The notes under the pieces: model-generated | What the model saw: only the letters and a program-made list of their open reading frames with translations | The model's database searches: none | Told to the model about the DNA's origin: nothing | Made by a program: the position numbers and the translations under genes | Shown here: piece after piece, positions 26,086 to 58,567 of the stretch | How positions within the stretch are numbered: the first letter of the stretch is position 1 | How the letters are laid out: every line of letters starts with the position of its first letter | Assembly (NCBI RefSeq): GCF_013376455.1 | Contig: NZ_CP045504.1 | Coordinates: 4,237,001-4,301,000, forward strand | DNA from: Desulfolutivibrio sulfodismutans DSM 3696 | GTDB taxonomy: Bacteria > Desulfobacterota > Desulfovibrionia > Desulfovibrionales > Desulfovibrionaceae | DNA length: 64,000 bases | Direction: 5' to 3'

Positions 26086-26247
26086 GGCGGGAACCTCCTG
26101 GGTTGGCATGTACGTCATATGCTGCCTCATCGTTCCGAGATGTGGAATCAATGTCAAGTAGTGAAGGCAGGGCCTGAGACGGCACGATATCCTGTCAGGC
26201 GGATACGCCTGGATGACCGCCCGGGCAGCGCCTCCGCAGGTCGAAAT

Positions 26248-35361: not shown

Positions 35362-36081
35362 ATGGATGACTATCAGTCGTCAGAGATTTCAGAATTGGCA
35401 AAGGCTCTCATTAACGTGCAAAGAACAATCAAGCCAGCGGTGAAGGATGCCACCAATCCTTTTGTTCAAAATCGTTATGCAACGCTCAACAGTGTGATGG
35501 ATTCTTGCCGTGAAGCCCTGCTCGGCAACAGCATTTGGATGACGCAATTCCCGGTACCAGCCGAGCCTGGGTACCTGGGGCTGGTCACGAAGTTGACTCA
35601 TGCTGAATCCGGCCAATGGCAGTCTTCACTGGCCGTGGTGCCACTCCCTAAAGCAGACCCGCAGGGCATGGGCAGCGCCATGACCTATGCCAGGCGGTAC
35701 GCACTGAGCGCCATGCTGGGCATCGTCACGGATGACGATGATGGCGAAGATTCAAAAATACCCACGAAAACGGCCAGTCCTTCCAGAAGGCCGCAAAATG
35801 CCTCTCTGGCGCACAAAGACACATCGTGTGATGTACGCCCTGGTCAATCCGACAAAAACGCCTCAAACTCGAAGCCTGTCGTTCCGAACCCATTGTCTAA
35901 CCCATTGCCTACTCTGCCCAGGATCGACGGCATCACCTACCAGACCGTGTCCGCCCAGGATGGTCGGCCCTGTGTGGTAGCCACGGGCAATACGGCAGCA
36001 AAAAAAGAACTCCTCTCCGGGGCGGGTTTCAAGTGGAACCCGCAGCGCAAAATGTGGTGGATGTATGCCGATGTATCCTGA
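35362..36081 (+). CDS. ERF family single-strand annealing protein
   Basis: A 239-residue protein. The N-terminal ~130 residues match the ERF superfamily (ISELAKALINVQRTIKPAVK, NPFVQNRYATLNSVMDSCRE, GMGSAMTYARRYALSAMLGI and a D-rich tail), which anneals complementary single strands in phage-type recombination. The C-terminus is a Pro/Ser linker followed by a small domain reading LSGAGFKWNPQRKMWWMYAD, a pattern seen in other phage proteins. It heads a plus-strand run that continues with a PD-(D/E)XK nuclease, the natural exonuclease partner. A strong terminator-like hairpin lies between the two. Confidence 0.88.
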   Translation: MDDYQSSEISELAKALINVQRTIKPAVKDATNPFVQNRYATLNSVMDSCREALLGNSIWMTQFPVPAEPGYLGLVTKLTHAESGQWQSSLAVVPLPKADPQGMGSAMTYARRYALSAMLGIVTDDDDGEDSKIPTKTASPSRRPQNASLAHKDTSCDVRPGQSDKNASNSKPVVPNPLSNPLPTLPRIDGITYQTVSAQDGRPCVVATGNTAAKKELLSGAGFKWNPQRKMWWMYADVS

Positions 36082-36106
36082 TTTCACACCGAAAATCCGA
36101 ACGTAA

Positions 36107-36140
36107 GCGGGCTGCCCCAAAAGGGCAGCCCGCTTCGTTT
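36107..36140 (+). terminator. Terminator-like hairpin after ERF gene
   Basis: Perfect 11-bp stem GCGGGCTGCCC / GGGCAGCCCGC around CAAAA, followed by TTCGTTT. It sits only 15 bases before the next start, so it may attenuate rather than end transcription. Confidence 0.75.
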
Positions 36141-36154
36141 ATGGAGGCTACCCC

Positions 36155-37441
36155 ATGTCCCAAACCGCACCGCCCAGTCTGGACCCAGGCACGGGATTGC
36201 TGTCCATCCTCGCCTCAGGCTTGCAGCGACACGCCGAGATCGCCACGGCAGTGACGCTTGGTGATCGCAGCCGGTATATCGGCCTCAGCGACATCGGCCG
36301 TGGCCTGGATTGTTTCCGGGCCACCGTGGCCGACAAACTTCCTACCGCCCATCCTCCTTTCACACCGTCAGCTCGTGCCCAGGCTGCAAGCCTTTCCCGG
36401 CAGCTGACGCTGCAGCGTGGGCATTGCTTTGAAAGCTTGGTCGGCCAGGCCCTGGCGAGCCACCGGCTCAATACGCTGCACCAACTCGAGATTGACGTTG
36501 TCTACCAGGGCACACCCATCAAGGCCCATCTCGATTTTGTCCTGGTGAGCGATGTCCCTGGTCCTACGGTGCGCATCCTGGAATGCAAAAGCACCAAGCA
36601 TCTGCCGGAAACGCTCTACGCCTCCTACGAATCCCAAGTGTACGGCCAGGTTGGCTTACTCAAGGCAGCCTGGAATAGCCCGGCCTTTTATCTCCGGGAT
36701 CCGAAGGGCACCGTGCTTCACGCTGGCTTGACCTTCCCGGAACTTTGCCACGTGCAATTCGGTCTCACCCTGCCGAACAACCCCAACCAAGTCGACCTGG
36801 AAGCCTGGGTGCTGTGCCTCTCCATGACAAACGCTAAGGTTTTCGGTCCTTACCGGCCGCATCAAGCCATGCTGGCGCTGTGCCTCAAGACAGCGGGAAC
36901 AATCTGGCAGCATCTCCAGGATTGTCTGGCAGGTACTCGCGACATCGACAGCCTGCCGACGGCCACCGGCTGTCATCCGCTTTGCTCCTTTTGTGACTGG
37001 AATACTGACTGTCCGAAATTCGATGGCCCTGACCAGCCTGGCTGGGAAGGGAATCTTCAAGAACTGGTCTCCCTCAAGGCCGTTCGAAGCGCTTTGGCGG
37101 AAGCCATCCAGGAGAAGGAAGAGGCCGCTAAAACCGCCTATGCCCTCACACCGACCCAGGGGGGCTGGATACGGGCCAACTCCTATCGCTTCAAAGTCGC
37201 ACAACAAGCCGGACGCCGTAGTCTGGATAAAGACAAGCTCCGACTGGAACTTATCGGCCTCACCGGCTCCCATGACGAAGCGGACCAACTGCTCGCCCGT
37301 TGCCAATCACAAGGCCAACCTTGTGACCGCCTGACGATCAGCCCGATCAACAGCAAATGCACGGCCACCCCGCAACGGGTGGCTCCTTTGTTTCAAAACC
37401 CCGAAATGATGGAGACAGCCCATGCACGACAGCCTGTCTGA
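36155..37441 (+). CDS. PD-(D/E)XK nuclease (RecB/Cas4-like)
   Basis: A 428-residue protein. The nuclease core has QRGHCFESLVGQALA, a strand with IKAHLDFVLVSD (catalytic Asp) and VRILECKSTKHLPE (E-x-K), then a YESQVYGQVGLLKAAW helix typical of RecB-like exonucleases. A CHPLCSFCDWNTDCPKF cluster near residue 274 supplies four Cys that could hold an Fe-S cluster, as in Cas4/AddB. The C-terminal region is unassigned. Together with ERF it forms an exonuclease-annealing pair. Its 3' end overlaps the ATPase gene by 20 bases. Confidence 0.8.
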   Translation: MSQTAPPSLDPGTGLLSILASGLQRHAEIATAVTLGDRSRYIGLSDIGRGLDCFRATVADKLPTAHPPFTPSARAQAASLSRQLTLQRGHCFESLVGQALASHRLNTLHQLEIDVVYQGTPIKAHLDFVLVSDVPGPTVRILECKSTKHLPETLYASYESQVYGQVGLLKAAWNSPAFYLRDPKGTVLHAGLTFPELCHVQFGLTLPNNPNQVDLEAWVLCLSMTNAKVFGPYRPHQAMLALCLKTAGTIWQHLQDCLAGTRDIDSLPTATGCHPLCSFCDWNTDCPKFDGPDQPGWEGNLQELVSLKAVRSALAEAIQEKEEAAKTAYALTPTQGGWIRANSYRFKVAQQAGRRSLDKDKLRLELIGLTGSHDEADQLLARCQSQGQPCDRLTISPINSKCTATPQRVAPLFQNPEMMETAHARQPV

Positions 37442-38399
37442 ACTGAGCCTCCTTGTGCCAACCGAACTGGACGCCGGCCAGGTGTTTAGCGGTACGCCCT
37501 CCGGCAAACCCGTCCAGGGATTTGCCACCCCGTGCTCCTACACACCCATGCCGTCCTCGGATTACATTTTCCACGAATCCAGCCGGGACATCATCGTCTG
37601 GTTTTTGGAACGCAGCGATCCGCTATACGTGTTTGGCCCGACCGGCTCCGGCAAGACCTCGCTGATAAAGGAGTTGGCCGCCCGGCTTCACTATCCCGTC
37701 TTTGAGGTGACCGGCCACGGTCGCATGGAGTTTGCCGATCTGGTCGGCCACTTGGCCGTGCGCGACGGTTCCATGGAATACGCCTACGGCCCCCTGACCT
37801 TGGCCATGCGTCATGGCGGCCTCTTTCTGCTCAACGAAATCGACTTGGTCAGCCCGGACGTGGCGGCTGGCTGCAACGGCATCCTGGACGGGCAGCCCCT
37901 GTGCTTGGCCGAAAACAGTGGGGAACTCATTACGCCGCATCCGCTCTTTCGGTTTGTGGCGACGGCCAATACCAACGGGTCGTTTGACGAAACCGGCCTT
38001 TACCAGGGAACGCTCCAGCAAAACCTGGCCTTCATGGACCGCTTCTGGCTGTGCGAAGTCGGCTACCCGGATACGCAAGCGGAATTGGGCCTGCTTGAAA
38101 GCCGGGCATCGCTCCTGCCGGAGGATGTTCGAGCTCGTATGGTAAACTTCGCCAATGAAGTTCGTCGGCTATTCGTGGGCGAAGCGGCCGGGGAGATCAC
38201 CAAGACCATCGAAGTGACATTTTCCACCCGCACCTTGCTGCGCTGGGCCGATCTGACCGTGCGCTTCCAGCCTTTGGCCAACCAGGGCATCCAGCCGGTG
38301 ACCTACGCCCTGGACCGGGCTCTCGGCTACCGGGCCAGTCGGGAAACCCGGGCCTTGCTGCATGAACTGGCCCAGCGAATTTTTCCTCATACCGTTTAA
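37422..38399 (+). CDS. MoxR/CbbQ-type AAA+ ATPase
   Basis: A 325-residue AAA+ protein with Walker A YVFGPTGSGKTSLIKELA (~67), a MoxR-type segment GRMEFADLVGHLAVRDG, Walker B GGLFLLNEIDLVSPD and sensor FRFVATANTNG, then LDRF-like MDRFWLCEVGYP. This is the MoxR/CbbQ/GvpN class, which acts with von Willebrand A proteins as metal-dependent chaperones or remodelers. The ATG overlaps the nuclease end with GGAG six bases before. The VWA partner is encoded two genes downstream, so a MoxR-VWA complex is very likely. Confidence 0.85.
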   Translation: MHDSLSELSLLVPTELDAGQVFSGTPSGKPVQGFATPCSYTPMPSSDYIFHESSRDIIVWFLERSDPLYVFGPTGSGKTSLIKELAARLHYPVFEVTGHGRMEFADLVGHLAVRDGSMEYAYGPLTLAMRHGGLFLLNEIDLVSPDVAAGCNGILDGQPLCLAENSGELITPHPLFRFVATANTNGSFDETGLYQGTLQQNLAFMDRFWLCEVGYPDTQAELGLLESRASLLPEDVRARMVNFANEVRRLFVGEAAGEITKTIEVTFSTRTLLRWADLTVRFQPLANQGIQPVTYALDRALGYRASRETRALLHELAQRIFPHTV

Positions 38400-38425
38400 A
38401 TCCAAACAATCAATGGGAGATAGCG

Positions 38426-39475
38426 ATGGATACTCCGGTTCTCTCCGACATCCGCGTTCTGGACAACCTCTTGGCCGTCAACCTCAACATCACGCTGTGG
38501 TCTGCCCGCAAAAAGCTGACCCTGGAAGACTTCGGTCCGGTGGATTTGCCGCCGGAAGATCTGGCGACCCTTGGCAGCAAGCGCATCGCGCCGCCGGAAA
38601 GCCTGCGCATCTTTGCCACGCTCAAGGCCCGGGCCTTTGCCTTTCTGGATCGCCACGGCATCCGCTTCCTGGGCGGCTGGGCCATCCCCGAAGACAAGGC
38701 GACCGAGATCGTCCGTGAACTCTGTTCCATCCGCGACGAATTCACGGCCCAAAAGGAAGCGTTCCTGACGGAATACGACACCCTGGTGCAGGACTGGATC
38801 GCCAAGCATGCGGATTGGGCCGATCTGATTGCCAATTCCACAGTGGGAAGCGAATATGTCCGCGCCCGCCTGGGATTTTCCTGGCAGCTGTACAAGGTGG
38901 CTCCGCTCATGGCCCATCCCGACGCTGAGACCATGATCGAATCCGGTTTGTATGAGGAAGTGGAGGGATTAGCCGGTACGCTTTTCACCGAAATCGCCAA
39001 GTTCGCTGATGAGACCTGGCGCAAGGTGTACGCTGGCAAGACGGAAGTGACCCACAAGGCGCTGTCGCCGCTGCGCACCATGTACCACAAGCTCATGGGC
39101 CTGACCTTTGTCGAGCCCCATGTGGCTCCGGTGACGGAGATCTTGCACATGGCGCTTTCGCGCCTGCCCAAGAAGGGCACCATCGTGGGGACGGACCTGC
39201 TCATGCTCCAAGGGCTGGTCTGCCTCCTGCGTGATCCTGATGCTCTCATTGAGCATAGTCAAAAGGTCATCGAGGGCTACGGTCCGGCCACGGTGCTGGA
39301 TTCGATCCTGCGTGAGCCGCTGGCCCTAGTTTTGGAGACGCAAGGTCCGGTGGATATCACCGGACTCCTGGACGCGCCGGATGGTGATGATCCGGCCCCG
39401 GTGGATATAACGGATGCCACGTCGCGTCCGTACTCTGGGACGCGGGTACAAATTCCCAGCATGGGGTTGTGGTGA
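38426..39475 (+). CDS. DUF3150 family protein
   Basis: A 349-residue protein recognised as DUF3150: VLDNLLAVNLNITLWSARKK, LGSKRIAPPESLRIFATLKA, FLDRHGIRFLGGWAIP and the helical central region. The family recurs between MoxR-type ATPase and CobT-like VWA genes on plasmids, phages and islands; the biochemical role is unknown. The C-terminal 40 residues are a Pro/Asp-rich flexible tail. The stop overlaps the GTG start region of the VWA gene, indicating coupled translation. Confidence 0.82.
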   Translation: MDTPVLSDIRVLDNLLAVNLNITLWSARKKLTLEDFGPVDLPPEDLATLGSKRIAPPESLRIFATLKARAFAFLDRHGIRFLGGWAIPEDKATEIVRELCSIRDEFTAQKEAFLTEYDTLVQDWIAKHADWADLIANSTVGSEYVRARLGFSWQLYKVAPLMAHPDAETMIESGLYEEVEGLAGTLFTEIAKFADETWRKVYAGKTEVTHKALSPLRTMYHKLMGLTFVEPHVAPVTEILHMALSRLPKKGTIVGTDLLMLQGLVCLLRDPDALIEHSQKVIEGYGPATVLDSILREPLALVLETQGPVDITGLLDAPDGDDPAPVDITDATSRPYSGTRVQIPSMGLW

Positions 39476-41217
39476 GCGCCATGGTGCCCATCCGTCATGT
39501 CATGCGGTCTTTGCCGCTCTTGGCCGCTGTGCTCGGCGACGCTTATGGCGTCGAAGTCGTAATCGGCGGCGATTTGGCCCACACCGACGGGAAAGCCATC
39601 CATCTGCCAACCCTGCCCCTGGAGGGTGACGCGACGGTGCTGGCATTGGCCCGGGGGCTTTTGGATCATGAGGCGGCTCATATCCGGGAGACGGATTTCG
39701 AAGCCCTGCGCCATTGGTCCTCCACACCGTTTGCCCATCACATCTGGAATTCGCTGGAAGATTGGCGCGTGGAGCAACAGCTGGCCGATCGCTTTCCAGG
39801 CTGCCGACAGAATCTTAGGTGGCTCATCGAGCATTATTTTACAGGCACAGGCACAGCAGACAGGGCCGGGGACCAAAACCCGGCCCTGTCCATTTTAAAC
39901 GCCATCCTGCTCACGGTGCGCGCCTGGGACGCACCTGGCGTCCAGGCAAATCGTGACGCGAAAATCAAGGAGGTGAACCAAGCCTTTCCCGGATTGTGGG
40001 CGCAAATCCAGGCCGTACTGGAAGAGGCCAGGGGGGCGTGCCGCAGCACTCAGGATGCCATCCGCTTGGCAGAGGCAATCGTTGCACTGGTCCAGGAAGA
40101 ACACCGCCGACAGCAGCGCTCTGGGGAGAGCCAGGAGCATGAACAGGAGCATGGAGACGCTGCAGTTGGGCAACGCCAATTGAAACCAGAGGCGGATCGC
40201 ACGGAGGGAAAAGAGGACCGGGGTCAACTCGCCGGGGACAGGCAAACGGAACCGGATGCCTGCGCTGGCGTAAGCGCAGGTGAACTCATGAACGATGCGC
40301 CTGCAAGCGGCTGCGTCACGACAGCGGCGAAGGATTCACTGGCGGAGTTGCTGGAAGCCGCTGCGCCAACGGATTGGCCGCAGCATTTGGGGGAGCGGTT
40401 GGCGCAATCCCTGGGTGAGCATCCCATCGAATCTTCGGACCAGGGCCTGACCGTGGCTCGGCTTGGCAGCAAAATGGCCAAGGCGCTGGAGGCGGCGGAG
40501 CGAAAAGCCTGTCTTCAGGCGTCGGTTGCTCTGCGTACGCGATTGTACCGGTTGCTCCAAGCCAGCCGGTTGGTGCGCAGCCAGCCCGGCCGTCACGGTA
40601 AGTTCGACCCCAAGCGTCTCCACGGTCTGGCCGTGGGCGACGCCCGGGTGTTTCTCAAGCTTGGCCAGAAGGCAGTCATCAACACGGCCGTACACATATT
40701 GCTCGATAGCAGCGGCTCCATGTCGGGTGCGCCTATCAAGCTGGCGTCCCAGGCCTGCTACGCCGTGGCGACAGCCCTGGAGAGGATCAAAGGGATAAAC
40801 GTGGCGGTCTCAGCCTTTCCGGCTGGGACAGCCCATGACGGTGTCACCGTGGCACCGCTGATCAAGCATGGAGAGAAGGTGCACGCCGAGCTCGACATCT
40901 TGGCGGAAGGCTACACGCCTTTGGCTCAGGCTTTGTGGTGGGTGCTCCAGCAGATGGTGTTGCTCAAGGAGGACCGAAAACTGGTCGTCATCGTGACGGA
41001 CGGCGAGCCAGATTCCGTTCCGGCCACCCACACGGTGCTGCGGACAGCTGAGGCGCTGGGATTGGAGGTCTACGGAATTGGCATCCAGTCGGAAAGCGTC
41101 CGGAGTCTGCTGCCGAGATCCAGCGTCAATGTAAAGTCGTTGTCGGATTTGCCGGAAGCGATGTTTTCGTTGCTGTACAATGCCTTGGCCCAAAGGCCGG
41201 CAGGAGGACGGCCATGA
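39469..41217 (+). CDS. VWA domain protein, CobT-like
   Basis: A protein of up to 582 residues. The N-terminal region contains LARGLLDHEAAHIRETDF, a HExxH-like zinc motif seen in this CobT-like group. The centre is acidic and Gln/Glu-rich (linker ~205-275). The C-terminal ~200 residues are a von Willebrand A domain with a complete MIDAS: HILLDSSGSMSGAPI (~409), the Thr in YTPLAQAL and VVIVTDGEPD. It resembles the CobT subunit of cobaltochelatase and probably works with the MoxR ATPase, but no CobN is present. Start uncertain: GTG 39469, GTG 39472 or ATG 39481. Ends in an ATGA overlap with a tiny ORF. Confidence 0.82.
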   Translation: MVSAMVPIRHVMRSLPLLAAVLGDAYGVEVVIGGDLAHTDGKAIHLPTLPLEGDATVLALARGLLDHEAAHIRETDFEALRHWSSTPFAHHIWNSLEDWRVEQQLADRFPGCRQNLRWLIEHYFTGTGTADRAGDQNPALSILNAILLTVRAWDAPGVQANRDAKIKEVNQAFPGLWAQIQAVLEEARGACRSTQDAIRLAEAIVALVQEEHRRQQRSGESQEHEQEHGDAAVGQRQLKPEADRTEGKEDRGQLAGDRQTEPDACAGVSAGELMNDAPASGCVTTAAKDSLAELLEAAAPTDWPQHLGERLAQSLGEHPIESSDQGLTVARLGSKMAKALEAAERKACLQASVALRTRLYRLLQASRLVRSQPGRHGKFDPKRLHGLAVGDARVFLKLGQKAVINTAVHILLDSSGSMSGAPIKLASQACYAVATALERIKGINVAVSAFPAGTAHDGVTVAPLIKHGEKVHAELDILAEGYTPLAQALWWVLQQMVLLKEDRKLVVIVTDGEPDSVPATHTVLRTAEALGLEVYGIGIQSESVRSLLPRSSVNVKSLSDLPEAMFSLLYNALAQRPAGGRP

Positions 41218-41345
41218 ACGGAGGGAATGGAGGGCAGGAGCAGTGTGGGCCAGGGTGGCGTCGTGAGGTGAAAGTGCCCAACTGGTTTATTTGGTTGGGA
41301 CGAGAGTCGTATTGGCTTATTAAAGATAGAGGAGGTGTGAGGTGA
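41214..41345 (+). CDS. Small ORF of 43 residues, coupled to VWA gene
   Basis: The ATG overlaps the VWA stop by four bases with AGGAGG seven bases upstream. Translation MNGGNGGQEQCGPGWRREVK continues with an aromatic-rich VPNWFIWLGRESYWLI stretch. No family is recognised. The arrangement, not the sequence, supports that it is translated. Confidence 0.5.
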   Translation: MNGGNGGQEQCGPGWRREVKVPNWFIWLGRESYWLIKDRGGVR

Positions 41346-41413
41346 ATGTGTTTTCATGGTTGCCGGTCGTCATCGCATTGCTCGAGATAGTCAAAAGTCA
41401 AATGGAGGATTAG
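41342..41413 (+). CDS. Micro-ORF of 23 residues, hydrophobic
   Basis: GTG start overlapping the previous stop (GTGA), preceded by GAGGAGG. Translation begins VNVFSWLPVVIALLEIVKSQ, a likely single membrane helix. Too short to prove, but the strong Shine-Dalgarno and overlap argue for translation. Confidence 0.4.
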   Translation: MNVFSWLPVVIALLEIVKSQMED

Positions 41414-41420
41414 GGGCGTA

Positions 41421-41483
41421 ATGAGATCGTTAGTGGAAACGCTAAGATGGATATTTCGGCTTGATTTTAAACCTGGAGGATAG
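41421..41483 (+). CDS. Micro-ORF of 20 residues
   Basis: ATG seven bases after the preceding stop, with GGAGG and GGGG upstream. The peptide MRSLVETLRWIFRLDFKPGG is amphipathic and basic. It ends five bases before the next ATG. Weakly supported and listed because of the tandem arrangement. Confidence 0.3.
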   Translation: MRSLVETLRWIFRLDFKPGG

Positions 41484-41487
41484 AAAT

Positions 41488-41652
41488 ATGAGCAAAATTG
41501 GCTGTTTTGCTGTTGGTTGGTTGGCTGGGGTGGCTAGTGTGGTGACGGCAGCCGTCGTCGCAGACGCCGTGGAGCAGGAGGACGTCATTCTCGGCGGGGG
41601 GGAAACGGCGAAGGAGGTCGAAGGAGGCGCTGGGTCGGGAGGTGAGGAATAA
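41488..41652 (+). CDS. Small single-pass membrane protein (54 residues)
   Basis: ATG 41488 follows CTGGAGGATAGAAAT, a good ribosome-binding site. MSKIGCFAVGWLAGVASVVT and the following AAVVADAV form one hydrophobic helix, followed by an acidic Gly/Glu-rich cytoplasmic or periplasmic tail. Family unknown. It closes the run that begins with the ERF gene. Confidence 0.55.
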   Translation: MSKIGCFAVGWLAGVASVVTAAVVADAVEQEDVILGGGETAKEVEGGAGSGGEE

Positions 41653-41675
41653 TAGGCCGGTGAGATGCTGGATGT

Positions 41676-41850
41676 GGGACGCTCGGCTTTTGGGCTGGGC
41701 GTCCCCGCTAAGACTCTCCTAGCTTTTCCACGGATGCTTAGACCGCAGTTTTCGCCCACGAGCTAGTGATGGGATACCTTTTGGGGGAAAGGTCACAGCC
41801 ACCCCGGGTACTTGAGCTTACACCGTATTAAGCTCGTCCACTTTACCACG
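41676..41850 (+). ncRNA. Candidate structured RNA, unnamed
   Basis: The 477-base interval 41653-42130 has no well-supported long gene but holds consecutive inverted repeats: GGGACGC/GCGTCCC (41676-41705), CTAGCT/AGCTAG (about 41718-41767), ACCTTT/AAAGGT (about 41777-41794) and GAGCTT/AAGCTC around ACACCGTATT (about 41814-41836). Several stems in 175 bases, upstream of regulatory and replication genes, suggest a regulatory RNA or cis element. Strand and ends are guesses; no known RNA family was recognised. Confidence 0.3.
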
Positions 41851-41886
41851 CCACGGTCCGGGCAGGTCAAGGAGTCGCGAATAAAT

Positions 41887-42003
41887 ATGTGTGATCATCT
41901 TGGTCACCCTCCGGGAAGAACCATAGATGGGGTTTGTCCGTATAAGACTCTAAAATACAACATTTTTTGTGACGTTCAGGCAGGCAACGCGACTTCATCT
42001 TAA
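41887..42003 (+). CDS. Possible small ORF (38 residues)
   Basis: ATG preceded by AAGGAG at 11 bases. Translation MCDHLGHPPGRTIDGVCPYK, then YNIFCDVQ. Three Cys and two His could form a small metal site. No similarity recognised and no overlap with neighbours, so this is tentative. Confidence 0.25.
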   Translation: MCDHLGHPPGRTIDGVCPYKTLKYNIFCDVQAGNATSS

Positions 42004-42130
42004 TGGTCGAAACAAGGGGCCGCTAATTTAAAAAAAGTTGCGTGGAAGACCTGCCCCCTGGCCTAGGCTAGTTGTCGCTCCAACGCTCAACTCGGCAAGA
42101 AAACGAAAAATATTGGGCGCTGGAGGTATC

Positions 42131-42355
42131 ATGGATATTTTGAGTTCAATGAGAGAATCATGCCCATTGCTGGTGACTCGGGTGGAAGCGCAAAGGATCA
42201 CCGGAGGCCTTGTGAAGGCACGGACCTTGGCAAATCTGGATTGTTTGGGCAAAGGCCCCTCTGTTAAGGTCAAGCTGGGACGCATCGTCGCATACAGCAA
42301 GGACTCCTTTCTGGAGTGGCTGTCCGAACGGCTTCAGGAGGCTGAAAATGTATAG
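42131..42355 (+). CDS. AlpA-like helix-turn-helix DNA-binding protein
   Basis: A 74-residue protein with an excisionase/AlpA-type layout: VTRVEAQRITGGLVKARTLA forms the winged HTH, followed by KVKLGRIVAYSKDSFLEWL, the typical wing and closing helix that reads the minor groove. ATG 42131 follows GGAGG. Such proteins activate or direct excision of islands carrying tyrosine integrases, and one lies downstream (46116-47333). It overlaps the DUF3987 gene by eight bases, so both are co-expressed. Confidence 0.7.
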   Translation: MDILSSMRESCPLLVTRVEAQRITGGLVKARTLANLDCLGKGPSVKVKLGRIVAYSKDSFLEWLSERLQEAENV

Positions 42356-43763
42356 CTTGCAGCCTATTCATCCATCTGAGGCATTGCGCGGCCAGTCGAG
42401 GTGTTGTTGTTGGAAACTTGCAGCCGAACATAATGTCAATCCTGATTTGGTGGCAAGCTATATGTTTGGCTTGGTCATGTCGTCGACATTCGGTAATGTT
42501 GTGTGCGAGGTGCGTAAGAATCATGAAATCTCATCGGTGTTGTGGATAGCTGTAGGGACTGGCTCAGGATCAGGAAAAACTCCAGTTCTGCGTAGGTTGC
42601 AAGATCCTCTTAACACTGCATTTGAATCTGAGCTGTCGCTCAGTCAAGAAGACATTTCGCGTATAAATGCGCAATTGAAGGCATTACAAGCTCGGAAAAA
42701 GGTCCTTCTGAAGGAGCTTGAGAAGGCTAATGGCGAGAGCGCCCACGCACAGGAAGAGCTTTCGAAGGTTCTTCTCAGCCTGTCTAGGTCAAGATTGCCC
42801 ATCTCGCCGTTGTCCGGCTCGGTTACGCCATATGGGTTAGCCCAGGAATTGGAGAAGAGTGGGGGGTATCTCGCTTCGATTAGCTCTGAAGGTGGTATCT
42901 TGGCTACGCTCTTATCTGTGCCCAACGAGTATCTTGGTCCACTTATGGACGCGTGGAGCGTGCAGCGCATCTCGGTGGTAAAGAAGGGGGCACGCATTGA
43001 TGTGCCGCGCCCAAGGTTTTCTGTTTGTGTTTCCTGGCAGCCAGAAAATGCTCGGAAGATCTTATTCACAGAGAAAAGAGCATGTACTGGTTTGACTGCG
43101 CGATTCCTCTACTGCGAAGTGCCTCGTATGGCTCATTCATACTATTTTCCGGTGGCTGAGAATGTATCAGATAAATGGTGGGAGGATCTCATGTCGTCAC
43201 TTGTCGGGCGATACGTGGGGAGCCACGAGGATTCGCCGCGTAAGATACGTCTTGACGGCCAGGCGCTTGATTATTTGAGGGCGTTTTGTGTGTCCATTGC
43301 TGGGGAACTGTCAAATGCCCGGGGGATGTCTGAATTCTCTTCAAAGGCTATGGATCACGTTGTGCGTTTGGCAATTGCGCTACATTGTCTCGACGGGGAT
43401 CATATGAATTCTGACGTAATTGGATATGATCAGATAATGCGCGCCTGTGGCATGGTCGTATATTTTGCGCAACAGCATGGACGGTGTTGGTGCTTGGAGT
43501 ATGAGAAGGATGTCAGGGGGAGGGCTAGAAAGATTGGAAGCTATTTCGCAAAGATACCGACGCCGTACCAAGCCCTTCCATGTATATCAACGGAGGATAT
43601 CGCCATAAGTACGGACATTCCCAAAAAGAAAGTTCTCCAGGCGATGCAGTGGATGGCTGCGCGGGGTTGGGCTAGATGTATACAGATGCAAGGTGCCAAT
43701 AAAAAGATGATAGATTGTTGGCAAGCGCAAGTATACCTGGGTGCTGTTGATTATGAAGCCTAA
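42348..43763 (+). CDS. DUF3987-type replication ATPase
   Basis: A 471-residue protein of the DUF3987/YfjI type found on phage satellites and islands. It has a P-loop WIAVGTGSGSGKTPVLRRL (~66-84), a coiled-coil helix (~100-145), PYGLAQELEKSGGYLASISSE with the acidic Walker B region, and a C-terminal winged-helix region (ISTDIPKKKVLQAMQWMAAR). Such proteins act as replicative helicase/primase-associated ATPases for mobile elements, though direct evidence for this subgroup is limited. It may drive autonomous replication of the excised island. Confidence 0.7.
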   Translation: MYSLQPIHPSEALRGQSRCCCWKLAAEHNVNPDLVASYMFGLVMSSTFGNVVCEVRKNHEISSVLWIAVGTGSGSGKTPVLRRLQDPLNTAFESELSLSQEDISRINAQLKALQARKKVLLKELEKANGESAHAQEELSKVLLSLSRSRLPISPLSGSVTPYGLAQELEKSGGYLASISSEGGILATLLSVPNEYLGPLMDAWSVQRISVVKKGARIDVPRPRFSVCVSWQPENARKILFTEKRACTGLTARFLYCEVPRMAHSYYFPVAENVSDKWWEDLMSSLVGRYVGSHEDSPRKIRLDGQALDYLRAFCVSIAGELSNARGMSEFSSKAMDHVVRLAIALHCLDGDHMNSDVIGYDQIMRACGMVVYFAQQHGRCWCLEYEKDVRGRARKIGSYFAKIPTPYQALPCISTEDIAISTDIPKKKVLQAMQWMAARGWARCIQMQGANKKMIDCWQAQVYLGAVDYEA

Positions 43764-46115: not shown

Positions 46116-47333
46116 CTACCCGTTGAGCGCAACGACCTTGCCGGGCGTCTTGCCCCTGATCGCTTCCAGGGAGTCCACGGCAGCGACCAAGTCATTCGGG
46201 GCCAGGTGGCTGTACCGCTCGGTCATGGCGGTAGTTGCGTGCCCCATGAGGCGGGCTACGGTGATGAGCGGAGTTCCCCGGCGAACAAGCCAGCTTGCGA
46301 AGGTATGCCGGAGTGAGTGGAAAACCACGCGGTCCCGTGCATCCTCAACGCCCATGTTGAAGAGTTCGTCCGCCGTCTTGATGAAGGTTTGCGAGACTTG
46401 GCCGATGCGGGTTCCCTTCTCGGAGGGGAAGACCAAATCCGAAGGGGCGGCATCGTCGAGGCGGCGGGCTTCGAGCATTTCCCGCGCAGTGCGGGTCAAA
46501 GGCACGACACGGTTCTTGCCGCTCTTGGTGTCCCTGACCTTTAATCCGTCGTGGGCCACATCCGCCCAAACGAGGGAGAAGATTTCGCCGGCCCTCAGTC
46601 CGGCGTTGAGGGCAAGAAGGGCCTGGTCATGAACTGTCCGGCTCTTTTCAGCCAGGGCTTCCAGGAGCCGTTGTGCTTCGTTTTCTTCCAGGAAGCGGTG
46701 ACGCCGGTTGTCCTTGGCCGGGCGCTTGACTAGGCGGGTAGGGCTTTCGCTCTGGTAGAGCCCGCGTTGCCGGGCGAGGTTCACAATCTGGCGGATGACG
46801 GCGAAGGCGTACTCGATGGTTCGGGGGGAACGCCCGGCGTCGAGCATCGCTTTCTTGACCCGTTGGACATGCAGTTCCCCCAGGTCCTTGACGCGTGTCT
46901 TCCCTATGGCCGGGCCGATCCAGACGCGAAACATGATCTCTTCGCGTTTCACCGTGGACGGACGCTTGTGGTCAATGGCCTGTTGGGGAAAGTATACTTC
47001 ATGAAAGAAGTTGGCGAGGGTGACGGCTTCGTGGGCTTTCAGGACTTCGGCTTCTTCGCGGGCCTTCCGGTCGGCATCGGCCAGGGCGCGTTTTTCAGCC
47101 AGCGAAACCGGGCCTTCGCCCGTGGCGTGGGCCTTCTTGAGGTCCGAGAGGACCGTGGCGGCCTTCTGCTCGGACCAGCCCTCGGACGCCCACCCAAGAC
47201 CTTCTTCTCGACGCTTGCCGCCCACCTGGGCGCGGATGGCGAAGTAACGGTCTAACCGCACGCCGTGCTTGCGGCTGGCGTGTTCGTAGTACCGAACGCC
47301 GGGGAACTTCGAGGAAACCCATTTGACCGCCAT
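46116..47333 (-). CDS. Tyrosine-type site-specific integrase
   Basis: A 405-residue island integrase. It has an N-terminal arm-binding domain, a core-binding domain (LANFFHEVYFPQQA to PRTIEYAFAVIRQIVN) and a complete catalytic domain: first Arg in LNAGLRAGEI, Lys in TKSGKNRVVPL, HxxR in FHSLRHTFASWL, His in LMGHATTAMTERYSHL, and the Tyr nucleophile in ERYSHL. Start ATG 47333 is the first consistent with family length. It faces the tRNA-Lys attachment site 158 bases away. It recombines island and tRNA attachment sites; excision would depend on a directionality factor such as the AlpA-like protein. Confidence 0.92.
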   Translation of the reverse strand: MAVKWVSSKFPGVRYYEHASRKHGVRLDRYFAIRAQVGGKRREEGLGWASEGWSEQKAATVLSDLKKAHATGEGPVSLAEKRALADADRKAREEAEVLKAHEAVTLANFFHEVYFPQQAIDHKRPSTVKREEIMFRVWIGPAIGKTRVKDLGELHVQRVKKAMLDAGRSPRTIEYAFAVIRQIVNLARQRGLYQSESPTRLVKRPAKDNRRHRFLEENEAQRLLEALAEKSRTVHDQALLALNAGLRAGEIFSLVWADVAHDGLKVRDTKSGKNRVVPLTRTAREMLEARRLDDAAPSDLVFPSEKGTRIGQVSQTFIKTADELFNMGVEDARDRVVFHSLRHTFASWLVRRGTPLITVARLMGHATTAMTERYSHLAPNDLVAAVDSLEAIRGKTPGKVVALNG

Positions 47334-47399
47334 GTCCGCCACCTCCAATTTCTCTCCCCACTCTCTCCCCACTTTTATGCAGAAATGGGGTGTTATCGA

Positions 47400-47479
47400 G
47401 TGAAGCCCTGTGAAGAAAAATAGGTCTGGAAGTAAGGACAGTCAACGGATTTCATGGAATCCAGTGAAGTCGGGTGAAG
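47400..47479. repeat. Four GTGAAG repeats, probable integrase arm sites
   Basis: GTGAAG occurs at 47400-47405, 47410-47415, 47464-47469 and 47474-47479. Within each pair the starts are exactly 10 bp apart, one DNA turn, and the pairs are 64 bp apart, between integrase start and attachment core. This is the layout of arm-type sites bound by the integrase N-terminal domain. Direct sequence observation; role inferred. Confidence 0.55.
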
Positions 47480-47490
47480 GTGCCAAAATG

Positions 47491-47538
47491 GGACTCTTAA
47501 TCCGTTGGTTCAAGGTTCGAGTCCTTGATGGCCCACCA
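47491..47538 (+). other. Island attachment site: 3' part of tRNA-Lys(CUU)
   Basis: Sequence from the anticodon stem (GGACTCTTAATCC, anticodon CTT) through an intact T arm (CAAGG TTCGAGT CCTTG) to GATGGCCCACCA. The matching 5' half (acceptor GGGCCAT, D arm) is absent upstream; left of GGACTC the DNA is island sequence. The fragment is therefore the integration scar. The complete tRNA gene is expected at the other island end, outside this window. Crossover in the anticodon stem-loop is typical of tyrosine integrases. Confidence 0.8.
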
Positions 47539-47548
47539 GAAATTTCAA

Positions 47549-47583
47549 GGGGTCAGGTGAAAATCACCTGGCCCTTTTGCTTT
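47549..47583 (+). terminator. Terminator behind tRNA-Lys site
   Basis: GGTCAGGTGA and TCACCTGGCC pair (one G-T) around AAA, followed by CTTTTGCTTTT. It is probably the native terminator of the tRNA gene retained next to the attachment site. Confidence 0.7.
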
Positions 47584-47682
47584 TGGCGAGGTTCTGGTCC
47601 CGCTCTGGTCCCGCTTTTTTTGATGATGGGCGACAGTTTGGCGCTCCTAGATGGGGGTGTTCGTCTGCGGACATCGTCCATT

Positions 47683-47815
47683 TCATGGGCTTGCATGGCT
47701 GCAAACCGTTGTCCCAAAAAGCACCTTGTACCCGACGCCAAGCGCCGTCCCCAGATGCCTGGCCATGGCCTTGCCGATGGGACGCTTGCCATTCTTCATC
47801 TCGGAGATGCAGCGA
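47683..47815 (-). pseudogene. Remnant of an XRE-type regulator
   Basis: Minus-strand translation ISEMKNGKRPIGKAMARHLG followed by TALGVGYKVLF matches the end of an XRE helix-turn-helix antitoxin domain (IS-x-I/M-x-x-G-K-R-x-I-G-K-x-M-A-x-x-L). No start or first helices are found upstream, so the gene is a fragment beside the tRNA insertion hotspot. The rest of 47584-48018 holds no convincing gene. Confidence 0.5.
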
Positions 47816-48018
47816 GGGGGGGGCTGGCCAGACCCCGGCGACGGTGCGCCCATGACACGCGCCGCGCAATGGACAGCGGCGATATGCTCGACTATAGCCC
47901 ACGTATCGGAAGCCTACGCGGGGGAACGGCTGTCGATCTCCGGACGCATCTGGCGCGTACTGAAAGAAGCCCGGTTCGGGCCGGTCCCCGCGTGCACGTT
48001 TTCCCCCCAGGAGCCAGC

Positions 48019-48612
48019 ATGTCACGACTGCCGCTGCCGAAATACCAAGACCTCCCGCCCGAGACCCGGGCCCTTTACGACCAACTGGCGGCCAAACGGG
48101 GTCGCATCGACGGCATGTACCAGACCCTGCTCTCCCATCCGGCCCTTCTGGAAAAGGTGTCCGCCCTGGGCGGCTATCTGCGTTTCGGAGAAACCGCCCT
48201 GCCGCCCGAGGCCAGGGAACTGGCGATTCTGGCCTGCGCCCGGCGCATGGGGGCGGGATACGAATGGGTGAAACACCTTGGTCCGGCCAGACAGGCCGGG
48301 ATTCCGGACCCGGTCATCGAAGCCCTGCGCACGGGGCGAGAGCCGGAGGGGCTTGCCCCTGGGCTGCGTGCGGTCCTCGACGCGGCGGGCTGCGCCCTGG
48401 CCCGGCGGACGATCCCGGCCGGGGTCCAGGACGAGGTGGCCAGGGCCTACGGCGTCGAGGGTGTTGTGGAACTGGTGGTGCTGTGCGGGTTTTACGCCAT
48501 GATCGCGGGGGTGATCTTTGCCTTCGACGTCCCGCTGCCCGAGGGCGCGCGGGATCCGTTCGCGCCGCAGGCCGACGAAAATGAACCGACGACCGGAGGG
48601 GAAAGCGCGTGA
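48019..48612 (+). CDS. Carboxymuconolactone decarboxylase family protein
   Basis: A 197-residue AhpD-like all-helical protein: YQTLLSHPALLEKVSALGGY, ETALPPEARELAILACARRM, GAGYEWVKHLGPARQAGIPD and VVELVVLCGFYAMIAGVIFA match the family. The usual Cys-x-x-Cys of AhpD is replaced by GYEWVKH, as in the CMD-type subgroup, so lactone or quinone chemistry is likelier than peroxide reduction. ATG 48019 follows CCAGGAGCC. It overlaps the thiamine-diphosphate enzyme gene (GTGA), so both act in one operon, possibly on one substrate. Confidence 0.8.
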   Translation: MSRLPLPKYQDLPPETRALYDQLAAKRGRIDGMYQTLLSHPALLEKVSALGGYLRFGETALPPEARELAILACARRMGAGYEWVKHLGPARQAGIPDPVIEALRTGREPEGLAPGLRAVLDAAGCALARRTIPAGVQDEVARAYGVEGVVELVVLCGFYAMIAGVIFAFDVPLPEGARDPFAPQADENEPTTGGESA

Positions 48613-50336
48613 AGACGACGGCCTATTATCTTGAGGCGCTGGCCCGGGAAGGGCTCACGCATGTGTTTCTCGTGCCCGGGGGGCTCATTGATCCGTTCCT
48701 GGAGGATCTGACCCGGACGTCCGGGCTCACGGCGGTGGTGGCGGCCCACGAGGGCGGCGCAACCTTTATGGCCGACGGCTACGCCCGTGCCTCGGGCCGC
48801 TTCGGGGCCTGCCTGTGCATCGGCGGGCCGGGCGTCACCAACACCCTGACCGGCGCGGTGGCCGCCTCCACGGACAACTCGCCGGTGCTCATCCTCTCGG
48901 GACAGGTGCCCACCGATTGGGAGGGGCGCGGCGGCTTTCAGGATTCCTCCCCGGCCACCCTCAACGATCTGGCCATGCTCGACCCGGCGGTTCGCAAATC
49001 CCTGGCCGTGGAAAACACCCATCTGGCCGCCCACCATCTCCGTTCGGCCCTGACGGCCATGCTGGCGGCCCCCCAGGGCCCTGTCCACCTGAGCCTGCCC
49101 ACGGACGTCCAGCGCGGGGATATCGCCACGCCGTGGACGCCGCTCGATGCGACCCTGTACCATCCCCGGGTTTACGACCCCGTGGCCATGGAGCGGGCCC
49201 TTACCATCCTGTCCCCGTCCGGAGGCGACCCGGCCCCGCGCCGTGTGGCCATCCTGGCCGGGGCGGGCGTGGAGAAATCCGGCTGCGCCGACGAACTCCT
49301 GCGCTTCGCCGAGCGCTACGCCATTCCGGTGGCCACCACGCTTCGGGCCAAGGGGGTTTTCCCCGAGGACCATCCCCTGTCGCTCGGGGTCTTCGGCTAT
49401 GCCGGGCACCGACATGCCATCGAGGGGCTGCTTTCGGGCGGCGTGGAGGTGCTTGTCGTGCTCGGGTCGGGACTCTCCCAACGCGACACGCTGTTTTGGG
49501 ACCGCAAGATGCTCCCGTCCAGGGCGCTCATCCATGTGGACATCGACCCCCGGGTCATCGGGAGGACGTGGCCGGCCGAGGTCTCCCTGTGCGGGGATTG
49601 CGGCGAAATCCTGCGCCTTGCCCTGGCTGCGGACAGTCAGCGCCTCGGAGGCCTCGAGCGCTCGGTTCCCGAGCGGCGACAGTGGCTCGACGGCATCCGG
49701 GCCGCGGGACCGCGCTGCTACGATGCGCAAAACCAGGAGTGCGCGGACGTACCGCTGCATCCGGCCCGGGTGCTGGCGGCGCTTCGCCGGGTCATGCCGC
49801 GCCAGGGCGGACTGGTGGTGGATTCCGGGGCGCATCGGGCCTTTTGCGGCCATTACTGGCAGGCCTACGCCCCCCGGACCTATTTTTCAGCCACCAACAT
49901 CGGCCCCATGGGCTGGGCCATCCCGGCGGCCTGCGGCATCAAGGCGGCGCGCCCGGACGTGCCGCTGGCCGTGGTCACCGGGGACGGCTGCATGCTCATG
50001 CACGGCATGGACATCCAGACCGCAGCCAGGTACGGCCTGGCCGTGGTGTACGTGGTGATCAACAACGCCGCGCTCGGCAACGTCTGGCTGCGCGCGCACC
50101 AGGAGGGCCCGGGACCGGCCGCGCTGACGGAAATCCCCAGGCGGGACTGGGCCGGGATGGCCAGGGCCATGGGGCTTGGGGCGGCCGTGGTCGAGCGGCC
50201 CGAGGAGTTGGAGCCGGCCTTCGAAAAGGCCCTGGCGTCGGGGACGGCGTATCTGGTGGATGTGCGTTGCGACAAGCGGTTCGCCACGCCGGTTACGCCC
50301 TATGCCCAGGCCAAGGCGGTCTGGCACGACGACTAG
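48609..50336 (+). CDS. Thiamine-diphosphate enzyme, acetolactate synthase-like
   Basis: A 575-residue three-domain TPP enzyme. N-terminal PYR domain with catalytic Glu in VVAAHEGGATFMADGYARAS; central DHS-like fold (LAGAGVEKSGCADELLRFAE); C-terminal PP domain with VTGDGCMLMHGMDIQTA and VVINNAALGN (GDG-x-NN, Mg/TPP site). It resembles acetolactate synthase or sulfopyruvate/phosphonopyruvate decarboxylase relatives, and no regulatory subunit is nearby. GTG start overlapping the upstream stop. Substrate cannot be assigned; the CMD-family neighbour suggests a small catabolic or biosynthetic unit. Confidence 0.85.
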   Translation: MKTTAYYLEALAREGLTHVFLVPGGLIDPFLEDLTRTSGLTAVVAAHEGGATFMADGYARASGRFGACLCIGGPGVTNTLTGAVAASTDNSPVLILSGQVPTDWEGRGGFQDSSPATLNDLAMLDPAVRKSLAVENTHLAAHHLRSALTAMLAAPQGPVHLSLPTDVQRGDIATPWTPLDATLYHPRVYDPVAMERALTILSPSGGDPAPRRVAILAGAGVEKSGCADELLRFAERYAIPVATTLRAKGVFPEDHPLSLGVFGYAGHRHAIEGLLSGGVEVLVVLGSGLSQRDTLFWDRKMLPSRALIHVDIDPRVIGRTWPAEVSLCGDCGEILRLALAADSQRLGGLERSVPERRQWLDGIRAAGPRCYDAQNQECADVPLHPARVLAALRRVMPRQGGLVVDSGAHRAFCGHYWQAYAPRTYFSATNIGPMGWAIPAACGIKAARPDVPLAVVTGDGCMLMHGMDIQTAARYGLAVVYVVINNAALGNVWLRAHQEGPGPAALTEIPRRDWAGMARAMGLGAAVVERPEELEPAFEKALASGTAYLVDVRCDKRFATPVTPYAQAKAVWHDD

Positions 50337-57269: not shown

Positions 57270-58547
57270 TCACCCACATCCCTCGCCGCTGCCGCCGCTG
57301 CACCGGCAGGCCCCGGACAGGCCCTTACGGCGCGACTTGAGGCTGGTCAGGTCGCCGGTCCCGAATATTTCCTCCACCCCGTCTTCGACGAGGCCCGAGC
57401 AGCCGTGGACCATGATGCCGCGTTCCATGAGGAGCTTGGCCGGGGTCTCGCCGTAGGACGAACACAAGACGGCGCGGCAGTCCTTAAGCACCCGGGCCAA
57501 CTCCTCCCAGCGGCGCGGGCCGCCGCCGGGCTCGGGCGCGGCGCGCTCCTCCACCAAAAAGAGGCCGCCCTCGTTTTTGCCGTAAATCTGAAAGGCCCAG
57601 GCCTCGCCCAGGTGCAGGTTGATGAGCATGCCTTCGCGGGTGGCCACGGCCACGTAGGGCCGACTCTCGTCCGCCCCGGGGACGACCTTGGAGCAGGCCC
57701 GCAGCATGTCGCTGAATTCCCCCGAGCGGTCGGAACACAAAAGCCCCACGGCGTCGGCCCGGCAGCGGCGGCAGTGGGTCATCTGGGGCAGGTACGCGGC
57801 CGAGAGCTGTCTGGCGGCGGCGATCTGGTCCTTGGTGGGCTCGGGAATCTCCGCGAAAGGCGTATTGGGCGTGGGGAACATGGCCATGATGTTGTGGATG
57901 TTCGCGCCAAGCGCAGCCACGGTCTTGGAAATCTCGCCCACATGGTGGTCGTTTATGCCCGGGACCACGATGGTGTTGACCTTGACGGTGATGCCCTTGG
58001 CGGCGAGCAGGCGCACGGATTCGAGCTGGCGGCTGATGAGCAGCTCGGCGGCGGCCCGGCCGCGCAGGATGAGCTTGCCGTCGCGCACCCAGGAATAGAC
58101 CTTCTCGCCCACGTCCGGGTCCACGGCGTTGATGGTCACGGTGACGTGGGTGGCCCCGACCTCGGCCAGTTCGTCCACATGGCCGGGCAGGGCCAGGCCG
58201 TTGGAGGACAGGCAAAACAGCAGGTGCGGGAAGCGTTCCTTGAGGAGTTTCAGGGTGTGGTGCGTCTCGGCCCAGTTGGCCATGGGGTCGCCGGGCCCGG
58301 CGATGCCGGCCACGGTGATGCGCGGCTCTTTTTCCAGCACCTCTTCCATGTAGGCCATGGCCTGAACCGGGGTGAGCACGGCGCTGGAGACGCCGGGCCG
58401 GGACTCGTTGACGCAGTCGTGCTTGCGATCACAGTAGTTGCACTTGATGTTGCATTTGGGGGCTATGGGCAGATGCACCCGTCCGCACTGTCCCGAGGCT
58501 TCCTTGTTGAAACAGGGGTGGCGGGAGAGATCCCTTTGGATATCCAT
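57270..58547 (-). CDS. nifB: Nitrogenase cofactor biosynthesis protein NifB (NifB-NifX fusion)
   Basis: A 425-residue radical-SAM protein that makes NifB-co, the Fe-S core of FeMo-co. SAM cluster motif PKCNIKCNYCDRKHDC is present (C-x3-C-x2-C), with upstream HPCFN and the family's GIAGPGDPMAN segment. Residues ~310-400 form the fused NifX-like cofactor carrier domain (YVAVATREGMLINLHLGEAW, GIMVHGCSGLVEDGVEEIF). The protein ends in GACRCSGGSGEGCG, a Cys-rich tail. It lies 20 bases after nifN with AAAGGAGC upstream, so nifE-nifN-nifB is one transcript. Confidence 0.96.
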   Translation of the reverse strand: MDIQRDLSRHPCFNKEASGQCGRVHLPIAPKCNIKCNYCDRKHDCVNESRPGVSSAVLTPVQAMAYMEEVLEKEPRITVAGIAGPGDPMANWAETHHTLKLLKERFPHLLFCLSSNGLALPGHVDELAEVGATHVTVTINAVDPDVGEKVYSWVRDGKLILRGRAAAELLISRQLESVRLLAAKGITVKVNTIVVPGINDHHVGEISKTVAALGANIHNIMAMFPTPNTPFAEIPEPTKDQIAAARQLSAAYLPQMTHCRRCRADAVGLLCSDRSGEFSDMLRACSKVVPGADESRPYVAVATREGMLINLHLGEAWAFQIYGKNEGGLFLVEERAAPEPGGGPRRWEELARVLKDCRAVLCSSYGETPAKLLMERGIMVHGCSGLVEDGVEEIFGTGDLTSLKSRRKGLSGACRCSGGSGEGCG

Positions 58548-58567
58548 CGCAAGCTCCTTTGCGGTTT

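Follow-up and report, generated by a model that had tools for sequence, protein, structure and literature searches.

The DNA preceding the integrase gene in the stretch analysed here (the window: 64,000 nucleotides, G000:C1:4237001-4301000 of a 4.44-Mb genome) can be taken, with good confidence, as attR, the right-hand attachment site of a 100.9-kb prophage that has integrated into a tRNA-Lys(CTT) gene, in its anticodon half; the same confidence covers the mechanism proposed below. The island end is real and ordinary. The arm sites had been misassigned in the initial annotation of this DNA, and the part worth following is the arm code: the bases of 11-bp tandem repeats covary with residues of the integrase N-terminal domain, as though one face of the N-terminal beta-sheet carried a recognition code.

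The attachment region had first been recognised from the order of integrase start, GTGAAG repeats and tRNA-Lys 3' fragment, all of which were located as described. It and its surroundings comprise the following features:
46116-47333, minus strand: tyrosine integrase, 405 aa, with an N-terminal domain of arm-binding type (PF00589, E 7.3e-32).
47351-47372, plus strand: integrase-side arm pair, TCTCTCCCCAC twice in tandem, predicted Int arm sites (tandem-repeat reading; matching pair at the far end).
47400-47415, plus strand: first GTGAAG pair, predicted excisionase operators (count and spacing, family comparison).
47417-47445, minus strand: predicted int promoter, TTGACT-17-TATTTT, between the GTGAAG pairs (consensus match only, without a null).
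47464-47479, plus strand: second GTGAAG pair, predicted excisionase operators (count and spacing, family comparison).
47491-47553, plus strand: attR core, tRNA-Lys 3' part plus 15 bp (exact copy at G000:C1:4183585-4183647).
47554-47693, plus strand: remnant like the left tip of another, G033-type element, with the arm pair TCTGGTCCCGC x2 at 47593-47614 (95% over 151 bp from 47491; 88% over 204 columns).
47977-50011, no strand assigned: chromosomal right flank common to the same-genus genome G033 (90% over 2038 columns, a match bounded by the stretch fetched).

The 3' part of tRNA-Lys(CTT) occupies 47491-47538, and identity with the intact gene of the same genome extends to 47553, giving a 63-bp exact match between 47491-47553 and C1:4183585-4183647, inside and just after the tRNA-Lys(CTT) gene at C1:4183557-4183632, upstream of the window. 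The two core copies are separated by 100,906 bp, and the other end lies 53.4 kb left of the window. The expectations that this end would fall beyond the window, and that an intact tRNA-Lys(CUU) gene upstream would share 47491-47538, are thus borne out; the second core copy on which the initial reading depended exists at C1:4183585-4183647. A complete tRNA spanning the scar at 47491, the alternative named at the outset, was rejected, a tRNA search of the window having returned no complete gene. With an integrase gene flanked by an intact tRNA and, at the opposite end, a displaced 3' fragment, the arrangement is that of island-type tRNA integration, as in the tRNA-integrated islands catalogued by Islander (PMC4383910), from which it does not differ in any essential respect. 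No empty tRNA-Lys site was seen, all three same-genus genomes (G000, G033 and G034) being occupied.

The integrase most likely starts at 47333, an ATG that its relatives favour over the GTG at 47372. Residues R247, K270, H339, R342, H365 and Y374, which we take to be the catalytic set of tyrosine integrases, are invariant among 18 aligned integrase proteins, and the catalytic domain has the conserved R, K, H, R, H and Tyr. The model of the protein (mean pLDDT 88.9) begins with strands 13-23, 26-37 and 40-48 and helix 55-71, and a like fold is obtained when the N-terminal domain is modelled alone (pLDDT 83.9). The three best structural matches of this three-strand, one-helix domain are arm-type binding domains of integrases, at Z 7.3, 6.8 and 6.4, all under 8 and not decisive; the best hit in a Foldseek search had E 0.11. 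For the whole chain, the best structural match is lambda Int (Z 19.2, 323 aligned residues, rmsd 15.3), and identity to lambda Int and to the arm-type binding domains of P4-like integrases is about 17-20%. Arm-binding domains are described as a hallmark of mobile-element integrases in the accessible part of PMC8138268. Matches in phage records reach 25-32% identity at best (best 15 of 539); a single-protein search of genome contigs found no relative, whereas an alignment search did. A second integrase of the same family, 40% identical, is present in the genome (L009, G000:C1:585201-586340 region), adjoined by a relative of the candidate excisionase discussed below. Directly downstream of the integrase gene, on the same strand, a RelE-like toxin match is found (PF06296; 45714-46112, minus strand).

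Within the window, the element carries three further gene blocks:
90-12224, plus strand: matches to mad5, mad6, mad7 and mad8 of MADS (system-gene matches).
12240-18500, plus strand: matches to zacA, zacB and zacC (system-gene matches).
35362-43763, plus strand: genes for ERF, a MoxR-type ATPase, DUF3150, CobT/VWA and DUF3987, adjoining int (family matches).

The left part of the element matches PHROGs for terminase, portal, minor head, head-tail adaptor, tape measure and tail proteins. Head, packaging and tail genes together with an integrase point to a prophage, and we read the 100.9 kb as a large prophage with defence cargo. The MADS gene set comprises mad1-mad8. Matches to mad2 and mad3 lie just left of the window; mad6, mad7 and mad8 are the best hits of their proteins, mad2, mad3 and mad5 are not, and the 10 proteins scanned, which matched mad2, 3, 5, 6, 7 and 8, gave no match to mad1 or mad4. 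Among the literature matches listed for MADS in prophages, nothing was to the point by title or start of abstract. The MADS and zacABC matches sit between the phage structural part and the integrase-side genes, and a Mutator-family transposase gene (PF00872; 18955-20163, minus strand) follows just right of zacABC. Two PcfJ-like proteins (PF14284) of different lengths are also encoded inside the prophage, at 22048-23235 (minus strand) and 25687-27483 (plus strand).

Everything left of 47491, including MADS, had been assigned to one or more nested mobile islands. The assignment to mobile DNA stands, in that the stretch back to C1:4183585 lies inside one att pair; the nesting appears less likely. 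Of 17 PF00589 matches in the genome, one falls inside the 100.9 kb, no serine recombinase was found there and no third core copy was detected (best 27/48 matching), so that a single element appears simpler than nested islands. GC content is 0.63-0.67 in the left 40 kb of the element and 0.49-0.60 in the rest, a step that makes the element mosaic and leaves room for a composite origin. Such a composite, made of a left-hand prophage and a separate defence island to its right with one pair of ends in common, would accommodate both the GC drop about 40 kb in and the Mutator transposase at 18955-20163; it is nevertheless unlikely in view of the one att pair, the one tyrosine recombinase, the failure to find a serine recombinase and the matched arm pairs at the outer ends. 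The large prophage with defence cargo is the reading retained here.

Two 11-bp tandem pairs, absent from the initial annotation, occur at 47351-47372 and 47593-47614, and the pair at 47351-47372 has a matching counterpart at the far end of the element, outside the window (G000:C1:4183689-4183710). Such pairs are a property of the integrase family. Among 71 loci read from the integrase matches (30 loci given, 40 fetched, plus L082), 62 have a period-11 tandem repeat (9/10 matching) within 150 bp of the int start, and 9 are without a clear pair; when periods from 5 to 20 were scanned, none besides 11 exceeded 5/71 loci. With a looser score, 65/71 loci have a period-11 repeat, compared with 1.2 in shuffles. 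At one locus (L152, G143:C6:499032-499072), four tandem 11-bp units rather than two lie beside the integrase. The arm unit varies between elements, CTCTCCCCAC, CTGGTCCCGC, TGTACAAC, GGTACCACTTT and TGTCCCCCA being examples. In six tRNA-Lys elements, the pairs at the two ends match, the true pairing being the best of 720, a figure that overstates the case, as a single contig spans both ends only for G000, G034 and G134 and pairing across contigs was assumed for G033, G166 and G195; G258 was left out of this comparison because its ends differ.

Searches with two arm patterns in 288 genomes point in the same direction. The TGTACAAC pair occurs at 38 sites, compared with 1 for the reversed pattern; 30 of these were fetched, of which 11 lie at an integrase start and 19 after a tRNA 3' end and hairpin, the tRNA genes or fragments being Lys, Leu, Phe, Ala and Thr (six fragments read by eye). 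For the TGTCCCCCA pair there are 18 sites against 0 for the reversed control; all 18 were read, of which 10 adjoin an integrase start and the other 8 follow a tRNA end, L335 among the latter in a badly degraded state. For both patterns, all 48 sites read thus adjoin an integrase start or follow a tRNA end. Arm type and tRNA target accordingly vary independently of each other. The 11-bp tandem pairs probably behave as arm sites: they match at both ends and covary with the integrase N-domain, which is predicted to bind them.

The GTGAAG repeats, which had been taken as arm-type sites, are four in number (47400, 47410, 47464 and 47474) and form two pairs at 10-bp spacing, one helical turn, as initially described; they are the sole such cluster in 137.5 kb, where neither strand has another four GTGAAG within 150 bp or another pair 9-12 bp apart. 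The arm-type label itself finds no support. In the 100.9-kb element, the repeats occur on the integrase side, flanking the int promoter, and none was found within 300 bp on the island side of attL; across elements, GTGA remains constant while arms and integrases change, and it is the 11-bp pairs that behave as arms. GTGAAG was rejected as the integrase arm site on account of this one-sidedness and constancy. If the repeats were nonetheless the arm-type sites, the 11-bp pairs would have to serve something else. Direct repetition, helical spacing and a position within the attachment region would suit that assignment, and many P' sides of relatives also carry a few GTGA copies; set against the concerted change of integrase N-domains and 11-bp pairs at unchanged GTGA, the empty island side of attL, and the confinement of two 11-bp patterns to element ends in 48/48 sites, it is improbable. 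In what follows, the 11-bp pairs are taken as the integrase arm sites, a role that the GTGAAG repeats probably do not have.

The covariation of arm bases with the integrase was followed in 103 aligned arm units, whose registers were fixed with training and test loci pooled, a mild leak. Arm similarity correlates with that of the N-domain (residues 1-72) at a Mantel r of 0.51 and with that of residues 101-225 at 0.39; the partial r is 0.39 for the N-domain versus 0.17 for the rest (0/2000 permutations). Of 649 residue/base pairs in 63 non-redundant loci, the strongest link residue 43 to position 4 (z 11.2), 41 to position 7 (z 10.1) and 36 to position 8 (z 6.8); next come 14 with position 5 and 34 with position 6. 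Counted among the 103 loci, D41 goes with G7 in 17/17 and T41 with A7 in 15/16; E43 goes with C4 in 52/58 and T43 with A4 in 13/14; K36 goes with C8 in 36/38 and Q36 with A8 in 13/17; R41 is looser, with C7 in 27/39. An earlier verbal rule (GKD means CCGC) was dropped after holding in 3/5 new loci (L203 and L257 failed). Along the strands, the covarying residues alternate: summed z is 13.4 to 26.2 for residues 32, 34, 36, 41, 43 and 45 and 2.0 to 6.7 for the interleaved residues 33, 35, 37, 42, 44 and 46. Since strong values fall on alternate residues, the pattern would fit one sheet face lying in a DNA groove.

The rules were trained on 62 loci and tested on 41 from other collections, with N-domains at most 79% identical to any training locus. 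The test loci derive from 160 further loci, of which 80 were taken into the test after loci with partial N-termini and most of the weaker viral loci had been set aside; removal of 4 without upstream DNA and of near-copies of the training set left 64. A tandem repeat was found in 54/64, versus 2 to 7/64 in shuffled windows, and the 41 with period 11 were used to test the code (L210 and L211 are identical as printed). The rule from residue 41 to position 7 was right in 20/27 test loci against a baseline of 6 (0/5000 shuffles), that from 43 to 4 in 24/28 against 20, and that from 36 to 8 in 23/35 against 19; the rule from 34 to 6 equalled its baseline (25/33). On a tree built without the N-domain, D41/G7 agrees in 9/9 independent pairs (p 0.004), and E43/C4 and Q36/A8 stay below significance (p 0.125 each). 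Shared ancestry, rather than recognition, would produce covariation of arms and N-domains as well, and the last two pairs and the failure of the rule from 34 to 6 to exceed its baseline are what it would lead one to expect. The independent D41/G7 pairs, the success of the rule from 41 to 7 and the better fit of arms to N-domain distance than to the rest of the protein make ancestry alone a poor candidate. We lean slightly towards a simple, family-wide code in which single residues on one face of the strands would each determine a single arm base (D41 to G7, T41 to A7, E43 to C4, T43 to A4, K36 to C8 and Q36 to A8, with residues 14, 16, 32, 34 and 45 probably contributing) and arm specificity would have changed repeatedly and independently of the tRNA target.

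The GTGA boxes are likewise common to the family. In 71 loci, there are 2.97 GTGA per locus, compared with 0.24 for the reverse complement and 0.86 in shuffled sequence, and 66 pairs at spacing 10, compared with 0.3; their offsets from the arm pair are mainly about 7, 17, 27 and 37 bp and about 91 and 101 bp, whatever the arm type. A promoter-like match on the int strand (TTGAC-16/18-NA, scored without a null) was found at 31/71 loci; at 23 of these it follows the arm pair by 42-47 bp and falls between the GTGA clusters. The boxes drop to 1.17 per locus in a more distant set of 41 loci. A protein that may bind them is encoded within the integrase-side genes:
42131-42355, plus strand: candidate excisionase, small winged-helix-like protein, 74 aa (common to 5/7 whole elements, weakly to the other 2).

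Relatives of this protein occur in 5/7 elements read whole, and the other two give weak matches (E 5e-6 and 4e-4) to a profile of which the protein is itself a seed. It reached no curated cut-off against curated families; 3/7 of the candidate relatives touch excisionase PHROGs (E 0.017-0.44). The GTGAAG boxes are likely excisionase operators. As far as the accessible parts of the sources go, phage 186 Apl binds 6-bp operators that are direct repeats 10-11 bp apart at att, as is usual for RDFs (PMC7498355), and in KplE1 attL overlaps the int promoter, which integrase and RDF both repress (PMC2951348); RdfS of ICEMlSym is described as a winged-helix RDF without a clear consensus (PMC11963761). 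The present boxes resemble the Apl and TorI/IntS systems in being short direct repeats 10-11 bp apart at an att site that overlaps the int promoter, and differ from what these accounts describe in their sequence (GTGAAG), their symmetric placement about the int promoter in two clusters and their constancy among differing arms; they are predicted operators. Another regulator of int, such as a phage repressor or a host protein, could bind the boxes instead: they flank the int promoter, library support for the candidate excisionase is weak, and the boxes thin out in the distant loci (1.17 per locus in 41). We consider this unlikely, though a good deal less so than the arm-site assignment, as PMC7498355 describes RDF operators at att as direct repeats, short and spaced by one turn, as the P4 and KplE1 RDFs overlap the int promoter (PMC7498355, PMC2951348, both in part) and as a small winged-helix-like gene is common to the elements. 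Excisionase operators remain the preferred assignment.

To judge by its matches, more than plain chromosome lies to the right of the scar. The segment 47491-47693 matches a G033 contig at its intact tRNA-Lys, including the TCTGGTCCCGC x2 pair, and the G033 integrase, on another contig, bears the same pair at its start; an earlier G033-like element therefore probably once sat here and left its left tip. The counterpart of 47977-50011 lies just right of G033's own attR, and left of the tRNA identity is 88% to G033 and 80% to G034. G034 carries, at the same tRNA, a 15.9-kb element whose integrase is 67% identical; there the tip right of the scar is of CTCCCC type and the right-flank genes are located elsewhere. 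In G258, different arms were found at two tRNA-Lys contig ends, CTCTCCCCAC at L079 (G258:C31) and ATTGCCAC at L080 (G258:C18), probably two elements stacked at one tRNA. In all nine readable cases, stacked neighbours differ in their arms (a count made partly by eye, without comparison to an expectation, from which we draw no rule). The G033 element at the same tRNA-Lys carries a CRISPR-like repeat array (GGATCATCCCCGCGAGCGCGGGGAACAC) in its left end, some 450 bp past the arm pair (L078, G033:C126); we guess it to be of type I-E. The right flank of the window also holds nitrogenase-type genes (57270-61284, minus strand), namely a radical SAM/FeMo-Co protein and two Oxidored_nitro proteins.

These features could cooperate in the following manner: The incoming DNA would have brought a copy of the tRNA 3' end together with a terminator-like hairpin, whereby tRNA-Lys(CTT) was rebuilt at the left end and the old 3' end displaced to 47491. 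In the manner of lambda Int, the integrase may bridge DNA, with the tRNA core held by its core-binding and catalytic domains and the 11-bp arm pairs to either side (47351-47372 and C1:4183689-4183710) by its N-terminal beta-sheet domain. The GTGAAG boxes one turn apart would be bound by a small excisionase, probably the product of 42131-42355; as these boxes lie on both sides of the int promoter, the excisionase could steer excision and also repress int. Both ends, the core, the gene content, the matched end pairs, the spacing throughout the family and the arm/N-domain covariation are visible in the sequence itself; the binding, the excision and the identity of the excisionase we infer. Related elements would be laid out alike, at this tRNA gene or at others, only with different arm sequences, and may stack; the DNA right of the scar would be the left tip of an earlier such element. 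A close parallel is the attP of Cluster K mycobacteriophages (CrimD and relatives; PMC3203893, in the portion accessible), which likewise has two 11-bp arm-repeat pairs flanking the core and a terminator between the core and one arm pair. The second pair of CrimD is inverted, whereas both pairs of the 100.9-kb element are direct. For Cluster K, N-terminal substitutions (positions 17 and 19) were suggested, from four phages, to explain arm differences; the covariation in the present family spans over 100 loci and three or more residues.

A residue-by-base arm code across a whole family was not found in the literature searched, most subscription papers lying outside it; on which residues choose arm bases, it held only the suggestion from four phages in the accessible part of PMC3203893. 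As matched tandem arm pairs mark element ends (48/48 sites read), they could help to find the borders of such elements, and the MADS and zacABC matches are placed here as cargo of a probable prophage. The natural variation of the family yields predictions of which N-domain residues choose which arm bases. If true, a change of arm code that is independent of the tRNA target would allow several elements to accumulate at a single tRNA gene without excising one another by recombination.
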